NCBI GenBank assembly: GCA_029547805.1
Contig: JAKPOP010000003.1
Coordinates: 62,001-126,000, forward strand
Source: Deltaproteobacteria bacterium
Lineage (GTDB): Bacteria; Myxococcota_A; UBA9042; DTJE01
Direction of reading: 5' to 3'
DNA: 64,000 bases
Shown here one piece after another: positions 32,848-42,162 of the stretch; positions within the stretch are counted from its first letter, which is position 1, and each line of letters opens with the position of its first letter. Under the pieces are notes generated by a model, which made no database searches, was not told the DNA's origin, and saw only the letters and a program-made list of their open reading frames with translations. A program made the translations under genes and the position numbers.

Positions 32848-33765
32848 GTGAGCGTGGACCAGGATGGCGAGATCCGGGCAATCGTGGACGCGGTGGTGCA
32901 GCGGCTCCAGCGGGAGGGAATCGGGATCGCCCTTCCGGCTACCGATGCCGGATGCGGCGACTCCTGCAATCGGGGAGCGGCGGAGTGCACCGGATGCGGC
33001 CACAGCGTCCGGAAGCGACCCGATGACGCCAGGAAGATCGTGGATCTGGGCGCGGTTCGCCTGGGGGCCGCCTCGGGAGTCGGAGCGGTCCGGGGGGACC
33101 TGGCGCGCTACATCGACCATACCCTTCTGAAGGCCGACGCCACGCGCGAGGAACTCAAGCGCCTCTGCGAGGAGGCCAAGACGTATGGGTTCGCCTCGGT
33201 CTGCGTCAACAGCGCCAATGTCCGCTTCTGCAAGTCCCTGCTCCAGGGCACGCCGGTGATGACCGTGGCGGTCGTGGGCTTCCCTCTTGGAGCGATGCTT
33301 CCCGAGGCCAAGGCGTTCGAGACCCGGGAGGCGATCCGGAACGGGGCCGACGAGATCGACATGGTGATCAACCTGGGGGCCCTGAAGTCCAAGGACTACG
33401 ACCTCGTGCTGGAGGACATCCGCAAGGTGGTCCAGGCGGCGGCCCCCCGGAAGGTGAAGGTCATCCTCGAGACCGGGGCCCTGACCCGGAACGAGAAGAT
33501 CATCGCCTGCACGCTGTCGAAGATGGCCGGCGCCCACTTCGTGAAGACCTCCACGGGCTTCGGCCCCGGCGGCGCCACGGCCGAGGATGTCGCTCTGATG
33601 AAGGAGGTCGTCGGCGAGGCCCTGGAGGTGAAGGCCAGCGGCGGGATCCGAACCCAGGAGGACGCCCTGGCCATGATCGCCGCCGGTGCGACCCGCATCG
33701 GCGCCAGCGCCTCGGTGGCCATCGTGACGGGAAAGGGGAAGGAAAAGGCCGCGAAGGGCTACTGA
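32848..33765 (+). CDS. deoC: Deoxyribose-phosphate aldolase with N-terminal extension
   Basis: 305 residues from a GTG. DeoC cleaves 2-deoxyribose 5-phosphate to glyceraldehyde 3-phosphate and acetaldehyde in deoxynucleoside breakdown. The TIM barrel starts near residue 82 with YIDHTLLK (Asp90) and contains VNSANV, the Schiff-base Lys233 in VKTSTGFGPGG, and EVKASGGIRT. The first 80 residues are extra: an amphipathic helix (about residues 8-23, EIRAIVDAVVQRLQRE) followed by a segment with Cys36, Cys40, Cys47 and Cys50 (CxxxC, CxxC). The helix resembles encapsulation peptides of microcompartment enzymes, and the Cys group could bind zinc or an iron-sulfur cluster; both are inferences. Last gene of the bactofilin run. 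Its stop overlaps the convergent lipA end by 7 bases. Confidence 0.95.
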   Translation: MSVDQDGEIRAIVDAVVQRLQREGIGIALPATDAGCGDSCNRGAAECTGCGHSVRKRPDDARKIVDLGAVRLGAASGVGAVRGDLARYIDHTLLKADATREELKRLCEEAKTYGFASVCVNSANVRFCKSLLQGTPVMTVAVVGFPLGAMLPEAKAFETREAIRNGADEIDMVINLGALKSKDYDLVLEDIRKVVQAAAPRKVKVILETGALTRNEKIIACTLSKMAGAHFVKTSTGFGPGGATAEDVALMKEVVGEALEVKASGGIRTQEDALAMIAAGATRIGASASVAIVTGKGKEKAAKGY

Positions 33766-34676
33766 GGCGGCGACCTGTCGGCAACAGAGGTCCTGGCGGC
33801 CGGCCCCCCCGACAGGCGTCCCTCCAGGAAGAGTTCGGCGGCCCGGTAGGAGGAACGGACCAGGGGTCCCGAGGCCACGAAGTCGAATCCCATCCCCCGG
33901 GCCAGGCGCTCCAGTTCCGCGAACTCGTCCGGAGTCCACCAGCGGGCCACGGGGAGGTGCCTGGCCGTCGGGCGCAGGTACTGGCCCAGGGTCAGGATCC
34001 GAACCCCAGCCCCCCGCAGGTCGGTCATCGCCTCCAGAACCTCGTCCATCGTCTCTCCCAGGCCAAGCATGATCGAGGACTTGGTCCAGAGGGACGGATC
34101 GTGTTCCCGAGCCTCCCGGAGGACTTCGAGGGAATGGTCGTAGGACGACCGCCGATCCCGCACCACCGGGGTCAGGCGTCGGATGGTCTCCAGGTTGTGG
34201 GCCAGCACGTCGGGACCCCCGTCCAGCACCACCCGGAGCCGGTCCCCCCGGTAGTCGGGGATCAGCAGTTCCACCCGAGGCGGCGGGTCCAGGGCCTTCA
34301 GGGCGTCCAGGACCTTCCGGAAGTGCCCGGCCCCCAGGTCCGGCAGGTCGTCCCGATCGACGGAGGTGACGACCACGTACCGCAGGCCGGCCTCCCCAAC
34401 CAGCCGGGCGATTCGTTCGGGCTCCGTGGGGTCCAGGGGCCTCCCCTCCCGAGCGCTGGCCACGGCACAGAATCGGCAGGAGCGCGTGCAGCGGTCCCCC
34501 AGGATCATCAGGGTGGCGGTCCCTGCGGCCCAGCACTCCCCCTGGTTCGGGCATCGGGCCTCCTCGCAGACCGTGTGGAGTCGTTCCCGGTCCAGCGTCC
34601 GGTGGGTGGCCATCGCGACGATGCCGCCCGGGAGACGGACCCGAACCCAGGAAGGCAGTCCCCCGACACCCCTCAT
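33759..34676 (-). CDS. lipA: Lipoyl synthase
   Basis: 305 residues, normal length. LipA is a radical-SAM enzyme that inserts two sulfur atoms into octanoyl groups on lipoyl domains of 2-oxoacid dehydrogenases and the glycine cleavage H protein. Both clusters are visible: the auxiliary site Cys37, Cys42, Cys48 (CEEARCPNQGEC) and the radical-SAM site Cys63, Cys67, Cys70 (CTRSCRFC). The C-terminal RSSYRA supplies the conserved Ser ligand. The start at 34676 keeps the family's PSWVRVRLPGG lead-in and follows GGGAGG. lipB is not adjacent. Confidence 0.97.
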   Translation of the reverse strand: MRGVGGLPSWVRVRLPGGIVAMATHRTLDRERLHTVCEEARCPNQGECWAAGTATLMILGDRCTRSCRFCAVASAREGRPLDPTEPERIARLVGEAGLRYVVVTSVDRDDLPDLGAGHFRKVLDALKALDPPPRVELLIPDYRGDRLRVVLDGGPDVLAHNLETIRRLTPVVRDRRSSYDHSLEVLREAREHDPSLWTKSSIMLGLGETMDEVLEAMTDLRGAGVRILTLGQYLRPTARHLPVARWWTPDEFAELERLARGMGFDFVASGPLVRSSYRAAELFLEGRLSGGPAARTSVADRSPPQ

Positions 34677-34703
34677 GAAGGACCTCCCACGCCAGGGGAG
34701 CGT

Positions 34704-34732
34704 AGCATAGCGATCAAGATTCCCATTGACAA
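34704..34732 (-). promoter_or_regulatory. Promoter for lipA, overlapping the divergent promoter
   Basis: Minus strand: TTGTCA, 17 bases, TATGCT, with predicted start near 34697 and a 20-base leader. Its -35 shares five base pairs with the -35 of the plus-strand promoter at 34726, so polymerase can occupy only one at a time. Confidence 0.7.
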
Positions 34733-34754
34733 TGACCGAGCGGGCGCATAGACT
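34726..34754 (+). promoter_or_regulatory. Promoter for the bS22-like gene
   Basis: A perfect TTGACA -35, a 17-base spacer and TAGACT. Predicted start near 34761, about 36 bases before the ATG at 34797. It is the best sigma70-type match in the window, in keeping with a ribosomal protein gene. Confidence 0.8.
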
Positions 34755-34796
34755 GCTGGCGCTTTTCGAATCTTTCCATCAGGAGGATCGGGCCGA

Positions 34797-34898
34797 ATGA
34801 GCAGCGTGATCAAGAAGCGTCGCAAGAAGATGCGGAAGCACAAGTACGAGAAGATGCGCAAGAAGATGCGCCACGAGCGACGCAAGCGCGGCAAGTAG
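34797..34898 (+). CDS. bS22-like small ribosomal protein (AURKAIP1/COX24 domain)
   Basis: 33 residues, extremely basic: MSSVIKKRRKKMRKHKYEKM, then RKKMRHERRKRGK. The SVIKKRRKKMxKHK core is the signature of the AURKAIP1/COX24 family, whose bacterial members (bS22 in mycobacteria, the same 33-residue length) sit on the small ribosomal subunit and whose mitochondrial relative is mS38. AGGAGG lies 8-10 bases before the ATG, and a near-consensus promoter precedes it, so high expression is expected. It stands alone between lipA and the MopE-repeat gene. The assignment is by sequence pattern and length. Confidence 0.92.
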   Translation: MSSVIKKRRKKMRKHKYEKMRKKMRHERRKRGK

Positions 34899-35003: not shown

Positions 35004-38000
35004 CTACTGGCAGGTGTAGTCTCCGGCGACTCCGGAGGGAAGGCATCGGGCCGGCTCGGTGCAGGCGGGTCCCGATCCGCACAGGCAGGTTCCCGTCTCG
35101 GCATCGGTGTCACAGGAATTGGAGCGTAGCGAGTCGCAGACCGTCGACCCGGTCCACCCCTGGCAGACGCATCCCGATGGGCCGCACACGGGATTCGGCT
35201 GTTCGCAGATGCTGCTTCCCTTGCAGGTCCCCGAGAGACACTGGTCGTTGACGGTGCAATCGCGGCCGTCATTGCAGGTTTCCCCGGTGAGGGGCCTCCA
35301 GGAGGACTGGGACAGGGTCGGCTGGCAGGACTGGCACTCGTTGGTCGGATTCCTGTCTCCCGCGTGGTAGCAGGAGGAACCGATGTAACAGGTGCCATCC
35401 GCGATGGTCCAGGAGTTCTGGTTCCGGAAGACATCGCAGACCTGGCAGAACTTCGTCCCGTTGGACTGCCCGTTGACCAGGCACTGGTTCGAGATGAAGC
35501 AGAAATCCGCCTTCAGGACCTGGGAGCAGTTGTTCGGGGGCGGGAGGCCCTGGCACTGGGAGTCGTAACAGGAGGCGATGGGGGTGCAGGTGAACGTCGT
35601 CCCCCGGCAGAGGCCGCCGGTCTGGCAGACATCCGTGTAGGAACACAGGTCCCGGTCGTTGCAGGACGTGCCCAGGGCATCCTCGTGGATGCAGGGGTCG
35701 CCGGTCCTGATGCTCGGGTCGCAGCGATCGTTGGTGCAGGCGTTCCCGTCCGAACAGTCCCTCGCGATGCCCGGAAGGCACGCCCCTGAGAGGCACTCGT
35801 CCCCCAGGGTGCAGGGATTGCCGTCCTCGCATGGGACGTGGTCGGGCCCCGGACTCCAGGTGGACGGGGTCGCCGGGTTGCAGACCTGGCAGGCGTTGGT
35901 CGGGTTGGACTCGTTGGCATTGCGGCAGAGACCGTCGATCAGGCAGGTTCCCTCGAGGAGCAGGTAGTTGCATCCCCCGTTGCCATCGCACTGGTCCAGC
36001 GTGCAGTAGCGGCCGTCGGCGCAGGAATAGGAGGTGCCCTGACAGGTGCCGTTCGCGAGGCAGCGGTCCGTGTAGGAACAGAGATTGCCGTCGTCGCAGG
36101 ACTGGCCCACGTTGGCCGGCTGTTCCTGGCAGACATAGGACTGGCTGCTCAGGGAGACGCAGACCCCTCTCTTGCACGGGAGATTCGGGGAGGGGCAGTC
36201 GGCCGCGGGCCCCGGAACACAGGTACCGTCCTGGCACGAATCCCCGACCGTGCAGCCGTTTCCATCCGCATCGCAGCCATGCCCTGTGGGACGTGGCGAC
36301 CATCCCTGGGCATCCCGGGAGGCCTCGCACCAGAGACACGGGTTGGTCGGGTGGGGCGCACCGTCGGACACGCAGGAGGTCCCCCCGATCAGGCAGAAGC
36401 CCGTCCGGACCGAGTGCCGGCAGCCACCGCCAATGCAGAGGTCCTCGGTGCAGTCGAGGCCATCGTTGCAGTCGGAGTCGGCCCCGTCGTCGGTCATGCC
36501 GTCGCAGTCGTCGTCCTGGCCGTTGCAGGTCTCGTTTCGAGCGAGGCCCGCCGTGGAACACTCGAGGCCCGAACCGTCCAGGCGGCAGAGGACCATCCCA
36601 TCGCGGCAGCGTCCCGTCCCGCAGGTCTGCCCGACCCCCAGGGAGTTCCCATTCCAGTCCCGGAAGGTGAAGTCCTCGTCGGTGAGTCCGTCGCAGTCGT
36701 TGTCCCGGCCGTCACAACTCCGCTCCGAGGGGGTCTCGTAGAATGGCACGTTGCGATAGTCGCAGAACCAGTCCCCCGCGACGCACCGGGCGATGACCTG
36801 GTCGGGAGCACAGACGCCGACCCGAAGGCATGGGCAGTCGCCGCTGAGGACCCCGAGCCCATCGTCCGTGGACCCGTTGCAGTCGTCGTCCCGGTTGTTG
36901 CAGGTCTCTGGAGCAGCCAGCGAGGCGCTGCCGTCGGGATTGGTACTGCAGACGGGGCGCAGGTCAACGGGATGGCACTCCACGACCCCCGGGGATCGCC
37001 CACATTCTCCGATCCCGGAACACGAACTGCCCGGGAGTCCGCCCTGGTAGCGCTGGTCCTCGTCCGTCCCCCCGTCACAGTCGTCGTCCTGGCCGTTGCA
37101 GACCTCCGCGGTCGCCAGTCCCGCGGTCGAGCAGGCGAGCCCCGTGCCGTTGCAGACGACGGTCCCGTTTCGGCACCTTCCCGTGCCGCAGGGCTCTCCC
37201 AGGACCTTCTGGGCGCCATCCCAGTCCGTGAGCCGGAAGTCCTCGTCGGTCTGCCCGTCACAGTCGTTGTCCCGGCCGTCACACTGGACCTCTCGGTCGC
37301 GATCCCAGAAGGGGACCCGGGAGTAGTCGCACAGCCAGATTCCGGCCTCGCAGCGGGCCTGGATGAGCCGCTTGCCGTCCCCGCCGCAGACCCCCGTCTG
37401 TCGGCAGGTGCTGGCCTCCACGTCCGTCAGGTCCTCGTCGGTCTGCCCGTCGCAGTCGTCGTCGCGGTCGTTGCAGGTCTCCGGCACCGCCAGGGACTCG
37501 CTTCCTCCGGGATCGGTGCTGCAGACCACGCGGGTGCCATCCAGGCACTCCCGGCGACCTTCCCGCCGGGCGCACTCGCCGGTCCCGGTGCAGGCGACTC
37601 TCCCGGCCTCGGGACGGGCGGGGTCCAGAAAGATCTGGAAGTCCTCGTCGGTCTGCCCGTCGCAGTCGTTGTCCTTGCCGTCGCAGGACTCCTGGATCCG
37701 GGCAGCGGCATAGGTGGAACAGGTGAGGGACGCCCCGTCGGTCGTGCAGGTCACCTGGCCGCCGGAGCAGACCCCCTTGCCGCAGGGGTCGCCCTTCGCC
37801 AACGGATTTGGATGCTGGTCGTCCTGGAACCGGAAGTCCTCGTCGGTCTGTCCGTCGCAGTCGTTGTCCTTGCCGTCGCAGTGGGCCTCCTGCTCCCCGT
37901 CCCATCCCGGGACCAGCGAGTAGTCGCAGCGCCAGGAGCCGCGGTCGCACCGAGCGACGATGAACGAGGCCCCGGCCAGGCAGACGCCGGTCTTCCGACA

Positions 38001-40019
38001 GTCGCTGGCCGCGACCCCGACCAGGTCCTCGTCGGTCTGTCCGTCGCAGTCGTCGTCCTGGTTGTTGCAGACCTCCGCCTTGGCCCGGGAATCGGGGCCC
38101 TCAGGGTTGGTGGAGCAGGTGGCATGGGAGCCGTCCAGGCAGACGACGGTGCCGTATCGGTCCGGGATTGCGTCCCCATCGGCATCTCCACAGGCCCCCC
38201 GACCGTAACAGGTCTGGCCGACCCGAGGCATCGCCGGACAGTCGCCGCTCTCCTGGGGATCGGCGCAGGGGACTCCGTTGCCCTGATCGTAGGCGAAGTC
38301 CTCGTCGGTCTTGCCGTCGCAGTCATCGTCCTTGCCGTTGCAGGTCTCCGGGACAGGGTCCACCGATTCCAGGCAGCGCACCGAGGCCCCCTCTCCCCTG
38401 GCATGGAAACAGACCTGTCGCCCCAGGCGGCACTCCCCGACGTCGCTGCCACAGGCGGCGAATCGGGCCTCGGGGTTCCCCTCGTCGGTGTCCCCGTCGC
38501 AGTCGTCGTCCTTGCCATTGCAACGCTCCGAGGCGCCGGGATGGACCTCCGGGTCCGTGTCGTCGCAGTCCCCGTTGGCCGCGGTGTATCCGTCCCGGTC
38601 GGCGTCCGGGAGCCCCGCGCAGGGAAGGTCCCCTCCCCTGCAGTCCTGGTCGATGCCGTCGCCGCACCGTTCCGGAGCGCCCGCGTGAACCCAGGGGTCC
38701 TCGTCATTGCAGTCGGTGTCGGGGCCGGCCGGGTAGCCATCCCCATCCTGATCTTCGGCGTCGCAGAAGGTCACCTTCCCATCGCAGTTCCGGTCACAGG
38801 AGACCGGAGCCGTGCCGCCGCTCGGGACCAGGCAGCAGGGTTCGGGCCCCGAGTGCCGTGGGGCCCCGTCGTAGGAGAGTTCCGGGAAGACCCCGGCGTC
38901 GTAGGGTGCGTCGGGGTTTCCGGGACAGTGCTGGCGCTCCAGTTCGTCAGGCACGCCGTCCCCGTCGATGTCCCCTTCGAAGCAGCCGTCCTGGATGGGG
39001 TCATTGGCAACGCCGTTGCAGTTGTCGTCCTCCGGAGAGGTGCAGTCCTCCATGGCCATCCGGAGCCCGGCGGTGGAGCAGATCGGGAGGCCCGTCTCTT
39101 CGTCGCAGACGACCTTGCCTCCAGCACAACGCCCCGCGCCGCAGGGGTCTCCCACCACTCTCAGGGAGCCGTCCCAGTCTCGGACCACCAGATCCTCGTC
39201 GGTGAGCCCATCGCAGTCGTTGTCCTTGCCGTCGCATCGCTCCTCGGCACCGGGATGGACCGTCGGGTCCGCGACATCGCAGTCCAGCCGGCCGACCATC
39301 TCCAGGCAGGCCGGGGACCCCAGTGATTCCTCCCGACACCAGGTCGGCAGGCAGTCGGGGCTCTGGTCCCCGTCCTGGTCCCGGCAGATCGCGGGCGTCC
39401 CGTCGCAATCGTCGTCGACGGCCCCCTCGGGGGCCTGTCCACTGACGGAAAAGTCGCACCGGGAGCAGTCGTCCTCAAACCCTACGGGAGTGGCGGCCGC
39501 CTGGCCGTCGTTGCAGTCCCCGAGGAGCTCCTCCCCGGGGGCGCAACATCCCAGCACCTCACAGTCGGAAAAACCGTCGCGATCCCGGTCGCAGGCGGAA
39601 TCGATGGGCTGGAGGTCCAGGGGCACCGCGCCTCGAAACCCCAGGTCCCCCTTCCCGATGGCCCGCCCGACGACCTCGCCGCGGGACAGGGCCAGCACCA
39701 CGATCGTCACGGACCCCTGGAAGCGTTCCCCGGGGGTCATCCGGACCAGGAAGGGGCTCGTCAGGAGGTCCTTCTGGGCCACGTCGAAGCGGAAGCGCGC
39801 GTCGGAGGCCTCGTCCCTGGGGACGACCCGTCGTTCCGGTCCCTCGCCCTGAAGGAGATGGAAGAAGAGTTCCGTGGGTTTCAGGGATTCCGGGTCCCGG
39901 ACCTCGACGAAGAGGCTGTCATAGGTCCAGGTCGTCCGGGAGCATCCCGAAAGGAACAGCAGCGCACAGAACGGCACAGCCAGGATTCCCTGCGACGCGC
40001 ATCGCCAGGACCGATTCAT
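35004..40019 (-). CDS. Large lipoprotein with MopE-type Cys/Asp metal-binding repeats
   Basis: 1,671 residues. A lipoprotein signal ends LFLSGC (Cys26). Residues about 30-145 form a beta-rich domain. After that come twelve copies of the motif C-[DN]-x-x-D-[DN]-D-C-[DN]-G-x-T-D (for example CDGKDNDCDGQTDE), plus several degenerate ones, between about residues 230 and 1250. This is the putative metal-binding motif of MopE-like secreted proteins. The remaining part has Cys-rich units of the form DGxxCTxxDxCxxGxC. Asp, Cys and Gly dominate; most Cys should be disulfide-bonded, so the protein is very likely exposed on the outer membrane, where the Asp-rich loops could bind calcium or copper. Proteins of this kind are abundant in Myxococcota. 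The ATG at 40019 gives the only convincing signal peptide and lies just below a strong promoter. Confidence 0.92.
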   Translation of the reverse strand: MNRSWRCASQGILAVPFCALLFLSGCSRTTWTYDSLFVEVRDPESLKPTELFFHLLQGEGPERRVVPRDEASDARFRFDVAQKDLLTSPFLVRMTPGERFQGSVTIVVLALSRGEVVGRAIGKGDLGFRGAVPLDLQPIDSACDRDRDGFSDCEVLGCCAPGEELLGDCNDGQAAATPVGFEDDCSRCDFSVSGQAPEGAVDDDCDGTPAICRDQDGDQSPDCLPTWCREESLGSPACLEMVGRLDCDVADPTVHPGAEERCDGKDNDCDGLTDEDLVVRDWDGSLRVVGDPCGAGRCAGGKVVCDEETGLPICSTAGLRMAMEDCTSPEDDNCNGVANDPIQDGCFEGDIDGDGVPDELERQHCPGNPDAPYDAGVFPELSYDGAPRHSGPEPCCLVPSGGTAPVSCDRNCDGKVTFCDAEDQDGDGYPAGPDTDCNDEDPWVHAGAPERCGDGIDQDCRGGDLPCAGLPDADRDGYTAANGDCDDTDPEVHPGASERCNGKDDDCDGDTDEGNPEARFAACGSDVGECRLGRQVCFHARGEGASVRCLESVDPVPETCNGKDDDCDGKTDEDFAYDQGNGVPCADPQESGDCPAMPRVGQTCYGRGACGDADGDAIPDRYGTVVCLDGSHATCSTNPEGPDSRAKAEVCNNQDDDCDGQTDEDLVGVAASDCRKTGVCLAGASFIVARCDRGSWRCDYSLVPGWDGEQEAHCDGKDNDCDGQTDEDFRFQDDQHPNPLAKGDPCGKGVCSGGQVTCTTDGASLTCSTYAAARIQESCDGKDNDCDGQTDEDFQIFLDPARPEAGRVACTGTGECARREGRRECLDGTRVVCSTDPGGSESLAVPETCNDRDDDCDGQTDEDLTDVEASTCRQTGVCGGDGKRLIQARCEAGIWLCDYSRVPFWDRDREVQCDGRDNDCDGQTDEDFRLTDWDGAQKVLGEPCGTGRCRNGTVVCNGTGLACSTAGLATAEVCNGQDDDCDGGTDEDQRYQGGLPGSSCSGIGECGRSPGVVECHPVDLRPVCSTNPDGSASLAAPETCNNRDDDCNGSTDDGLGVLSGDCPCLRVGVCAPDQVIARCVAGDWFCDYRNVPFYETPSERSCDGRDNDCDGLTDEDFTFRDWNGNSLGVGQTCGTGRCRDGMVLCRLDGSGLECSTAGLARNETCNGQDDDCDGMTDDGADSDCNDGLDCTEDLCIGGGCRHSVRTGFCLIGGTSCVSDGAPHPTNPCLWCEASRDAQGWSPRPTGHGCDADGNGCTVGDSCQDGTCVPGPAADCPSPNLPCKRGVCVSLSSQSYVCQEQPANVGQSCDDGNLCSYTDRCLANGTCQGTSYSCADGRYCTLDQCDGNGGCNYLLLEGTCLIDGLCRNANESNPTNACQVCNPATPSTWSPGPDHVPCEDGNPCTLGDECLSGACLPGIARDCSDGNACTNDRCDPSIRTGDPCIHEDALGTSCNDRDLCSYTDVCQTGGLCRGTTFTCTPIASCYDSQCQGLPPPNNCSQVLKADFCFISNQCLVNGQSNGTKFCQVCDVFRNQNSWTIADGTCYIGSSCYHAGDRNPTNECQSCQPTLSQSSWRPLTGETCNDGRDCTVNDQCLSGTCKGSSICEQPNPVCGPSGCVCQGWTGSTVCDSLRSNSCDTDAETGTCLCGSGPACTEPARCLPSGVAGDYTCQ

Positions 40020-40047
40020 GAAGTCGCCTTCTCCAGGGCCGGATTCT

Positions 40048-40075
40048 ATTCTAGGAAAGCCCCGGTTCCGGTCAA
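40048..40075 (-). promoter_or_regulatory. Promoter for the MopE-repeat lipoprotein gene
   Basis: Minus strand: TTGACC, 16 bases, TAGAAT. Predicted start near 40041, about 22 bases before the ATG at 40019. The same hexamers and spacing recur at 63957-63984. Confidence 0.7.
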
Positions 40076-40110
40076 TCGCGGCAATCGTGGCCCCCGCGAC
40101 GGCAGGGCCT

Positions 40111-40138
40111 TTCGGCGCGCCTCGAAGAGCGATAGACT
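40111..40138 (+). promoter_or_regulatory. Promoter for the phoH-ybeY operon, near-leaderless start
   Basis: TTCGGC, 16 bases, TAGACT. The -10 ends only 8 bases before the ATG at 40147, so transcription would begin within a base or two of the start codon. The -35 is poor; the TAGACT match to other promoters is the main support. Confidence 0.5.
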
Positions 40139-40146
40139 TCCGCCCC

Positions 40147-42162
40147 ATGAGGAGGCTGCTCGTCTTCGGTGCAGTCATTCTGGCGTGTCCGGCAGTCCTC
40201 GGGGCCGAGCCGGTCCCCGCCGGTACCAGCGAGGTCCGCTGTGCCCTCCCCCAGGCCCTGGAACGGCCCGTCACGAATCTCCTCCAGGCCCTGGACGGCG
40301 GGGACTTCGCGGCGGCTCGCGTCTCTCTTGGAATCGTCCGGGACCGATCCCGTTCCCTGGGAATCCAGAACCTCTTTCCCCTCTCCGCCGCAGTGCGCCT
40401 CTGGCTCTCCGGGAAGGGAACGACCGCCCCCTCGTCGGACGTCCTGGAGGTCCTCGACGGGGTGATCGACCTGGCCCCCGACGACCCCTGGCTGCGACTC
40501 CATCGATCCCGCGTCGTCCTGGGACAGGGATTCGGTGGCATCAGCGAGGCCTTCCTGTCCCTGGAACAAGCCCTTCAGGCCTTCCGCCGGAATCCGGCCG
40601 CGTCCCTTCAGACGATGGGCCATGTCGCCTTCCTGTCGCTGCTCTCCCTGGTCGGTTGCCTCTTGCTCGTGTCCCTGGGGATCCTCCTTCGTCATTTCAC
40701 GCGTCTGGCCCACGACGCCGGGGACCTCTTTCCCCGGGCTCCCACCAGCGCCTTCTCGCTGCTGGAAATGGCCCGGTCCCGGGGGCTCCGGTTCCTGGTG
40801 GGAAGCGGGGCGAATCGCGTCCTGTCGGGGTCCCTGCTGGCGGTGGTCCTGTTCCTTCCCATCGTCGCCGGCCTCGGGCTGATTCCGACCGCCTGTCTCT
40901 GGACGGTGCTGCTGGTGCCCTATCTTCGTCCCGCAGAACGGGTCGGCGCGGCCTTCTCCCTGGTGTCCGTGGCCGGGATTCCCTGGATCGCGGCATGGGC
41001 CCTTCTGCCGGGCAGGGTCCTGGACGGCGACGGCGCCGCTCTCTGGACCGCGCTCCAGGGAACTCCACGACCGGGAGCCGAGGAGCAGGTCCTGCGGCGG
41101 GGCCTCGAACGGCCCGAGGACCCCTGGGCGGCCCTGGTCCGGTCCCGGATCGATGCCCGTCGGTCGCCCCTCTCCGTGGCGGTTCTCCAGGGGAACCGGA
41201 CCCGGCTGGCCGCCGCGACGCCCGATCCCCAGGGAGTCGTCGCCACCGAGATGGGCCACACGGAACTGCGTCTCTCGCTGGCAGACTGTGGTTCGGGAAG
41301 ACCGGACCGGGAGGCGGCCGCCCGGGCCCTGTCGGCCTATCGGGAGGCCCTGGCCCGGGCGCCGGGCCGCCCGGAGATCCTGGAGGCGATGGCCCTGGCT
41401 TCGGCACTGCAGGAGGACGTCGCTGGAACCCGGGATGCCCTGAAGAACTGGACTGCTGCCTCTCCCGAGGAGGAACTGGAACGAGTCGCCGCCTGGAAGC
41501 CCCTCCTGAACCCGGCGGATGCGTGCCGGGAGGCCCTCCGCCTGGACCGGGAACTTCGCCTCCCTCCGTTTTCCGCGTGGAATCTCTACCTCCTGGAGCA
41601 GGCTCCCTGGCTCCCGGCGGATACCCTCCCCTTCCAGTCGGCCCTGACGGGACGCATTCCCGTATCGTGGCTTCCGGTCCTGGGAGTCGCCGGACTGCTC
41701 ATCCTGGTCGTCCTCTCGGGCCTCGGGAATCGACTGCACTTCGCGTCCCGTTGTCCCCGATGCGGCCAGGTGTCCTGCCCCTCGTGCAACCGGGCAGCCA
41801 CGGGGTTCGACTACTGCCCCACCTGCCTCTTTGAACAGGTGCGGCCCGCGTTCCTGGACCCCGGCGAACGAATGGCCCGAGGAGAGCAGTCGTTCAAGGG
41901 CTTCCAACGCAGGGCCCGCCTGATCCTGGGTCTCCTCGTTCCCGGCCTTGGCCAGGTCCTCGACGGGAGACCGATCCGGGGAACGGTGTTCCTGCTCCTG
42001 TTGGCCGGGGCCCTGGTCTCGGTGACGGTCCCGGCCTCCCCGATCGTGGACCCGCTGTTCTTTTCGGGGGTCGGCCCAGGGCTTCCGGTCCTCCCGCCGG
42101 TGGTCCTGGCGACGGTCTTCCTGGTGTCGGCCATCGACCTGTGGAGGTTTGGACGGTCATGA
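40147..42162 (+). CDS. Multi-pass membrane protein with C-terminal zinc ribbon, unknown function
   Basis: 671 residues. A cleavable-looking signal peptide (MRRLLVFGAVILACPAVLG) is followed by a helical, TPR-like soluble region, hydrophobic segments near residues 160-185, 225-260 and 275-300, and a second helical soluble region. Next come another membrane helix (WLPVLGVAGLLILVVLSG), a six-Cys zinc ribbon (CPRCGQVSCPSCN and YCPTC), and two or three more helices beginning LILGLLVPGLGQVLDGRPIRG, a motif frequent in small membrane modules of the TM2/DUF5683 type. I do not recognise the whole. First of four overlapping genes ending in phoH and ybeY; overlaps the next by ATGA. Confidence 0.82.
   Translation: MRRLLVFGAVILACPAVLGAEPVPAGTSEVRCALPQALERPVTNLLQALDGGDFAAARVSLGIVRDRSRSLGIQNLFPLSAAVRLWLSGKGTTAPSSDVLEVLDGVIDLAPDDPWLRLHRSRVVLGQGFGGISEAFLSLEQALQAFRRNPAASLQTMGHVAFLSLLSLVGCLLLVSLGILLRHFTRLAHDAGDLFPRAPTSAFSLLEMARSRGLRFLVGSGANRVLSGSLLAVVLFLPIVAGLGLIPTACLWTVLLVPYLRPAERVGAAFSLVSVAGIPWIAAWALLPGRVLDGDGAALWTALQGTPRPGAEEQVLRRGLERPEDPWAALVRSRIDARRSPLSVAVLQGNRTRLAAATPDPQGVVATEMGHTELRLSLADCGSGRPDREAAARALSAYREALARAPGRPEILEAMALASALQEDVAGTRDALKNWTAASPEEELERVAAWKPLLNPADACREALRLDRELRLPPFSAWNLYLLEQAPWLPADTLPFQSALTGRIPVSWLPVLGVAGLLILVVLSGLGNRLHFASRCPRCGQVSCPSCNRAATGFDYCPTCLFEQVRPAFLDPGERMARGEQSFKGFQRRARLILGLLVPGLGQVLDGRPIRGTVFLLLLAGALVSVTVPASPIVDPLFFSGVGPGLPVLPPVVLATVFLVSAIDLWRFGRS

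Follow-up and report, generated by a model that had tools for sequence, protein, structure and literature searches.

The window analysed here, a stretch of 64 kb, contained two divergent genes, lipA on the minus strand and a small gene on the plus strand, separated by a gap of 120 bp. The lipA gene (33759–34676) encoded a lipoyl synthase of 305 aa and started at an ATG preceded by a GGGAGG Shine–Dalgarno motif; this start and its Shine–Dalgarno context recurred in the second sampled genome of the genus (G001). The product matched the TIGR00510 equivalog model with 349.9 bits for a cut-off of 310.25, which places it in the LipA family, and this name, given on the sequence match, is firm. The small gene (34797–34898, Shine–Dalgarno motif AGGAGG) encoded a putative ribosomal protein of 33 aa of the bS22/COX24 type. 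Its product scored above the cut-off of the Pfam family COX24_C (PF08213, 34.0 bits for a cut-off of 23) and below that of the NCBIfam model ribo_bS22 (NF047430, 29.1 bits for a cut-off of 34), and it could be aligned over its full length with bS22 chains from bacterial ribosome structures (8crx_X, E 0.0011), so that the name bS22/COX24 is held with fair confidence. The protein bS22 is described as an authentic component of the small subunit which is easily missed (excerpt of PMC10618245). In NCBIfam and Pfam neither product matched a transcription-regulator family, the only matches being LipA/radical SAM and COX24_C/bS22, respectively.

The surroundings of the two genes were as follows. The 3′ end of lipA lay tail to tail with that of deoC (plus strand, 32848–33765), with an overlap of 7 bp at 33759–33765. 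The bS22 gene was tail to tail with a reading frame of 1845 aa (35004–40541), rich in Cys and Asp, in which ten matches to a MopE-type putative metal-binding motif (PF11617) were found. A lipB gene, the candidate functional partner of lipA, was located on a different contig (C12). No Rfam match at the gathering score was present between 33500 and 36000, and on this basis the gap was judged not to contain a riboswitch or other regulatory RNA.

Two promoters had been predicted back to back in the gap, and the sequence elements of both were confirmed base by base together with the 5 bp overlap of their -35 elements. The promoter facing bS22, TTGACA-17-TAGACT on the plus strand, had its -35 element at 34726–34731 and its -10 element at 34749–34754, and agreed with the consensus at 10 of 12 positions. 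The promoter facing lipA, TTGTCA-17-TATGCT on the minus strand, had its -35 element at 34727–34732, a 17 bp spacer at 34710–34726 and its -10 element at 34704–34709, with agreement at 9 of 12 positions. The base-pairs in common to the two -35 hexamers were 34727–34731. Counted 7 bp past each -10 element, the transcription starts would be located at 34761 (plus strand) and 34697 (minus strand), 64 bp apart. With overlapping core elements, opposite directions and a gene behind each, the pair qualifies by its sequence as overlapping divergent sigma-70-type promoters. The sequence TTGACAA, composed of the bS22 -35 element and the next A, is almost its own reverse complement; a near-consensus -35 element (TTGTCA) is thus obtained for free on the other strand, which would make the overlap easy to evolve. 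The bS22 leader (34755–34796) began with a GC-rich segment and continued with a CTTTTCG-like sequence which recurred in several relatives, possibly a discriminator of the growth-rate type.

The arrangement stood out from the background. A scan of 4 kb gave two promoter-like sites for a mean of 0.2 in shuffled sequence. When the 64 kb window was ranked with a sigma-70 weight matrix made of approximate E. coli frequencies, the bS22 site came first and the lipA site second. At a score of at least 14 the window contained four promoters and one overlapping divergent pair, with no pair in 40 first-order shuffles; at a score of at least 12 there was again one such pair in the window, and a total of one over the 40 shuffles. 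With no shuffled pair at the higher threshold and a single one at the lower, it is unlikely that the pair arose by chance. The composite pattern consisting of the lipA -10 element, the shared TTGACAA and the bS22 -10 element occurred once in the 4.08 Mb of this genome.

The same composite pattern was found in 14 of the 52 genomes of the class, once in each, 12 of them outside the genus, compared with 3 of 52 for the reversed control. The divergent neighbouring frames were submitted to Pfam scans at 10 of these 12 other sites (all except those in G013 and G039), both neighbours at six sites and one neighbour at four. Among the six, both neighbours were named above the cut-off at three (amidohydrolase and zinc ribbon; ExbB and TonB-dependent receptor; N-terminal glutamine amidase and AAA ATPase), one of the two at two others (GAPDH; a beta-helix protein) and neither at the last (G006). 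The single neighbour was named at three of the four sites (bS16, DnaK, DNA polymerase III delta) and unnamed at the fourth (G020). Judged from these family assignments, the shared -35 layout is thus used again beside genes that have nothing to do with one another, and shows no particular link with lipA or with ribosomes. The composite was located upstream of the gene in the cases of GAPDH (G003, L128:1501–1552), bS16 (G015, L133:1501–1553) and DnaK (G014, L135:1501–1551).

The family sample comprised 13 genomes, with lipA in 10 and bS22 in the same 10; the lipA match of G009 reached the contig end, G004 gave only a 27-bit hit, and G007 and G010 gave none. The adjacency of lipA and the small gene in close relatives, which the original prediction had put forward as a check, was kept: the two genes were divergent neighbours in 8 of the 10 genomes possessing both (G000, the present genome, G001, G003, G005, G008, G009, G011 and G012). 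In G002 they were 2.1 kb apart on the same strand, and in G006 on different contigs, the partner being absent from the 926 bp upstream of lipA and the 624 bp upstream of bS22. In G002 (L009), where bS22 no longer adjoined lipA, a deoC-like frame recognised by eye was still tail to tail with lipA. In the four further class genomes that possess bS22 (G013, G020, G030 and G033), lipA was on a different contig. The divergent neighbourhood was thus limited to a single family, with 8 genomes out of the 14 in the class that possess bS22. A translated scan of the available flanks, some of them truncated, of 80 of the 563 confirmed lipA loci found no strongly basic peptide that began at an ATG and read M(G/S/A)S(V/I/L).

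The bS22 promoter was the widely conserved one of the two. In a survey limited to TTGACA, TGGACA or TTTACA followed by a -10 element beginning with TA, TTGACA was present in all 11 genomes of the order with bS22 and formed TTGACA-17-TANNNT in 10 of them, the -10 element of the eleventh (G013) being TATAAA. The three f9 genomes had a bS22 promoter with TTTACA or TGGACA as -35 element. The composite with a shared -35 element was found once each in G000 and G001, the two genomes of the genus sample, at the orthologous lipA/bS22 locus in both, and was absent from this locus in the six other divergent pairs. Conservation of the arrangement is thus borne out for the divergent adjacency, and the shared -35 element was clear in two of the eight pairs, both of this genus. 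In the other pairs, lipA promoters were searched within 260 bp upstream of bS22 with the same approximate matrix. A weak candidate for sharing was present in G009 (TTGTCA-17-CACTAT, equalled by 6 of 40 shuffles). The three genomes of genus g5 showed moderately supported candidates with a -35 element of their own, 40 to 69 bp from that of bS22: TGGAAA-16-TACACT at 40 bp in G012, TGGAAT-16-TAGACT at 69 bp in G011 and TGGAAA-16-TAAAAT at 63 bp in G005, each equalled by 1 of 40 shuffles. The candidate of G003 also had a separate -35 element and was weak (5 of 40 shuffles), and no good lipA promoter was visible within the 260 bp in G008.

In G000 and G001 the lipA promoter had 26 of its 29 bp in common, to be compared with 95 of 168 positions for the fourfold-degenerate sites of the lipA gene (binomial P 0.00013). 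The spacer was identical at 15 of 17 positions (P 0.006) and TTGACAA at 7 of 7 (P 0.018), and the -10 elements, taken singly, at 5 of 6 each (P 0.18, not significant), all of these values treating sites as independent within segments picked post hoc from the alignment of a single pair of genomes. The lipA -10 element TATGCT became TATGAT in G001. The bS22 spacer was unconserved (8 of 17 in an ungapped comparison), and 35 of the 37 bases preceding the bS22 ATG, counted by eye, were identical, so that conservation extended beyond the lipA promoter. The lipA spacer thus appears more conserved than a plain spacer requires, and the explanation that we favour leaves this excess unaccounted for. A 7 bp inverted pair was noticed by eye between AAGATTC (34716–34722) in the lipA spacer and GAATCTT (34768–34774) in the bS22 leader; it was reduced to 6 bp in G001, was below the 8 bp limit of the repeat finder and is possibly due to chance.

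We propose as the probable explanation that two ordinary housekeeping promoters share one -35 element, with a graded and one-sided competition and no on/off choice. In this model, two promoters of the sigma-70 type would be placed back to back within the 120 bp gap, and the TTGACAA of the conserved bS22 promoter would supply TTGTCA to the opposite strand. In this genus a lipA -10 element would have come to lie exactly 17 bp from this TTGTCA, one -35 site then being used by both promoters. The separate lipA -35 elements of genus g5 fit such a later compaction, and the overlap would be the derived state. The standard footprint of the polymerase extends from about -55 to +20, and two polymerases could therefore not be accommodated side by side when the starts are separated by 64 bp. 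During the whole time that a polymerase is bound at one promoter, the other would be blocked. A strongly firing bS22 promoter would then somewhat lower initiation at lipA, the interference being mild and one-sided, if there is any.

Overlapping divergent promoters are of a kind already known, and the lipA/bS22 case is lineage-specific; among the papers listed in a literature search, with most subscription journals outside it, none dealt with this gene pair as judged by title and abstract start. The following comparisons draw on excerpts of the cited articles. As in the bidirectional promoters of Warman et al., a single DNA segment would accept the polymerase in either orientation, but never in both together, owing to the near-symmetry of an element (PMC12825309, PMC10268837). 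In those promoters, however, the -10 element is shared and the starts are 7–25 bp apart, typically 18 (PMC10268837), whereas at lipA/bS22 it is the -35 element which is shared and the starts are predicted to be about 64 bp apart; with this distance and its separate -10 elements, the pair falls outside their definition. The “promoter island” of E. coli appY also contains divergent promoters called partly overlapping, with starts 64 bp apart (PMC4469952). These starts were measured and belong to many potential ones, often blocked by H-NS, whereas lipA/bS22 shows two clean promoters, two genes and predicted starts. In E. coli aroP, the opposite-strand promoters P1 and P3 overlap, and a polymerase on one prevents the use of the other: TyrR recruits the polymerase to P3 and shuts off P1, a repression by exclusive binding (PMC4374768). 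The lipA/bS22 pair differs in that no TyrR-like regulator is known there and that both promoters face genes. The Acinetobacter ddrR-umuDAb genes are likewise divergent, with a pairing kept within the genus (PMC7273328). A single inverted repeat underlies both of their -35 elements, and a joint silencing of the two genes by the repressor UmuDAb has been proposed; by comparison, no regulator is known at lipA/bS22.

By analogy with this last system, a regulator could bind the conserved lipA spacer or the shared -35 element and act on both genes, an alternative which we consider unlikely. That system, in which the starts were obtained by 5′ RACE, offers a precedent for a repression, as proposed there, of two divergent genes through their overlapping -35 elements (PMC7273328), and the lipA spacer, which covers -51 to -35 relative to the predicted bS22 start, was much better kept between the two species than the bS22 spacer. 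This conservation rests, however, on two genomes, no inverted repeat of at least 8 bp was present in the lipA spacer and Rfam gave no match in the region given above. A palindromic operator was sought with the repeat finder (at least 8 bp, 34660–34810) and rejected, the only result being a palindrome of 9 bp located where lipA translation starts (34670–34681). The 15-mer of the spacer, with up to two mismatches, gave 36 to 52 matches per genome in five genomes, for 0 to 1 with the reversed control, among the matches listed. A regulon marked by the spacer was rejected, as genomes devoid of the shared -35 element had equal match counts, and the matches presumably reflect codon and dinucleotide composition. 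Among the matches listed for G001, the exact one was found only at this promoter, which also argues against a regulator acting through this sequence.

It is also conceivable, although quite unlikely, that the coupling itself was selected. Strong, growth-driven firing of the bS22 promoter would then throttle lipA proportionally in this genus, a factor on the spacer would set the direction, and the level of LipA would vary inversely with growth rate; such a lineage would adjust its lipoyl synthase inversely to growth without a dedicated lipA regulator. We see a slim chance that the minus-strand site is no lipA promoter at all, lipA using another, unrecognised promoter and TTGTCA simply mirroring the bS22 -35 element. 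That TTGTCA comes for free with TTGACAA, and that six of the divergent pairs had no lipA -10 element at this place save the weak one of G009, is in keeping with this idea. It is at odds with TATGCT, which at exactly 17 bp produced the second-best score of the window and was replaced by TATGAT in G001, with the conservation of the 29 bp beyond that of fourfold sites, and with the lack of a further good minus-strand site within 260 bp upstream of bS22.

The original prediction went further and described a compact switch, in which exclusive binding of the polymerase would make the expression of bS22 and lipA mutually exclusive on each chromosome copy and link translation capacity to lipoate supply; this we consider highly improbable, as exclusive binding does not equal exclusive expression. 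The 5 bp overlap, the high scores of both sites and the composite retained in the second species speak in favour of the switch, and steric exclusion of occupancy, deduced from footprints, is plausible. Interference is on record for aroP P1/P3 (PMC4374768) and for activated bidirectional promoters (PMC12825309), and a strong promoter is mentioned that represses its divergent neighbour over a distance of 100 bp (PMC4469952). However, occupancy would last only through initiation, and mRNAs and proteins persist, so that both genes could be expressed from one chromosome; exclusive expression finds no support here. In five E. coli bidirectional promoters with a shared -10 element, the basal activity did not suffice for the two sides to compete; competition set in only upon strong activation of one side, whose rise could then repress the other (excerpt of PMC12825309). 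A bistable or exclusive switch calls for at least one product of a known regulator family, and neither product matched one. Nor is there any indication that translation capacity and lipoate supply are linked in general, the composite being missing from the locus in six of the eight genomes with a divergent pair, where G009 offers a weak candidate.

On the reading of two ordinary promoters sharing a -35 element, the lipA/bS22 gap is, as the evidence stands, compact but otherwise a gene start region like others. It illustrates cleanly, in a natural sequence, the near-symmetry of TTGACAA letting one -35 element serve two genes. Such sharing is visible in a single genus, and in a neighbouring one the two promoters are kept apart. 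If the competition between the two promoters were strong, the gap would provide a passive regulation without a regulator.
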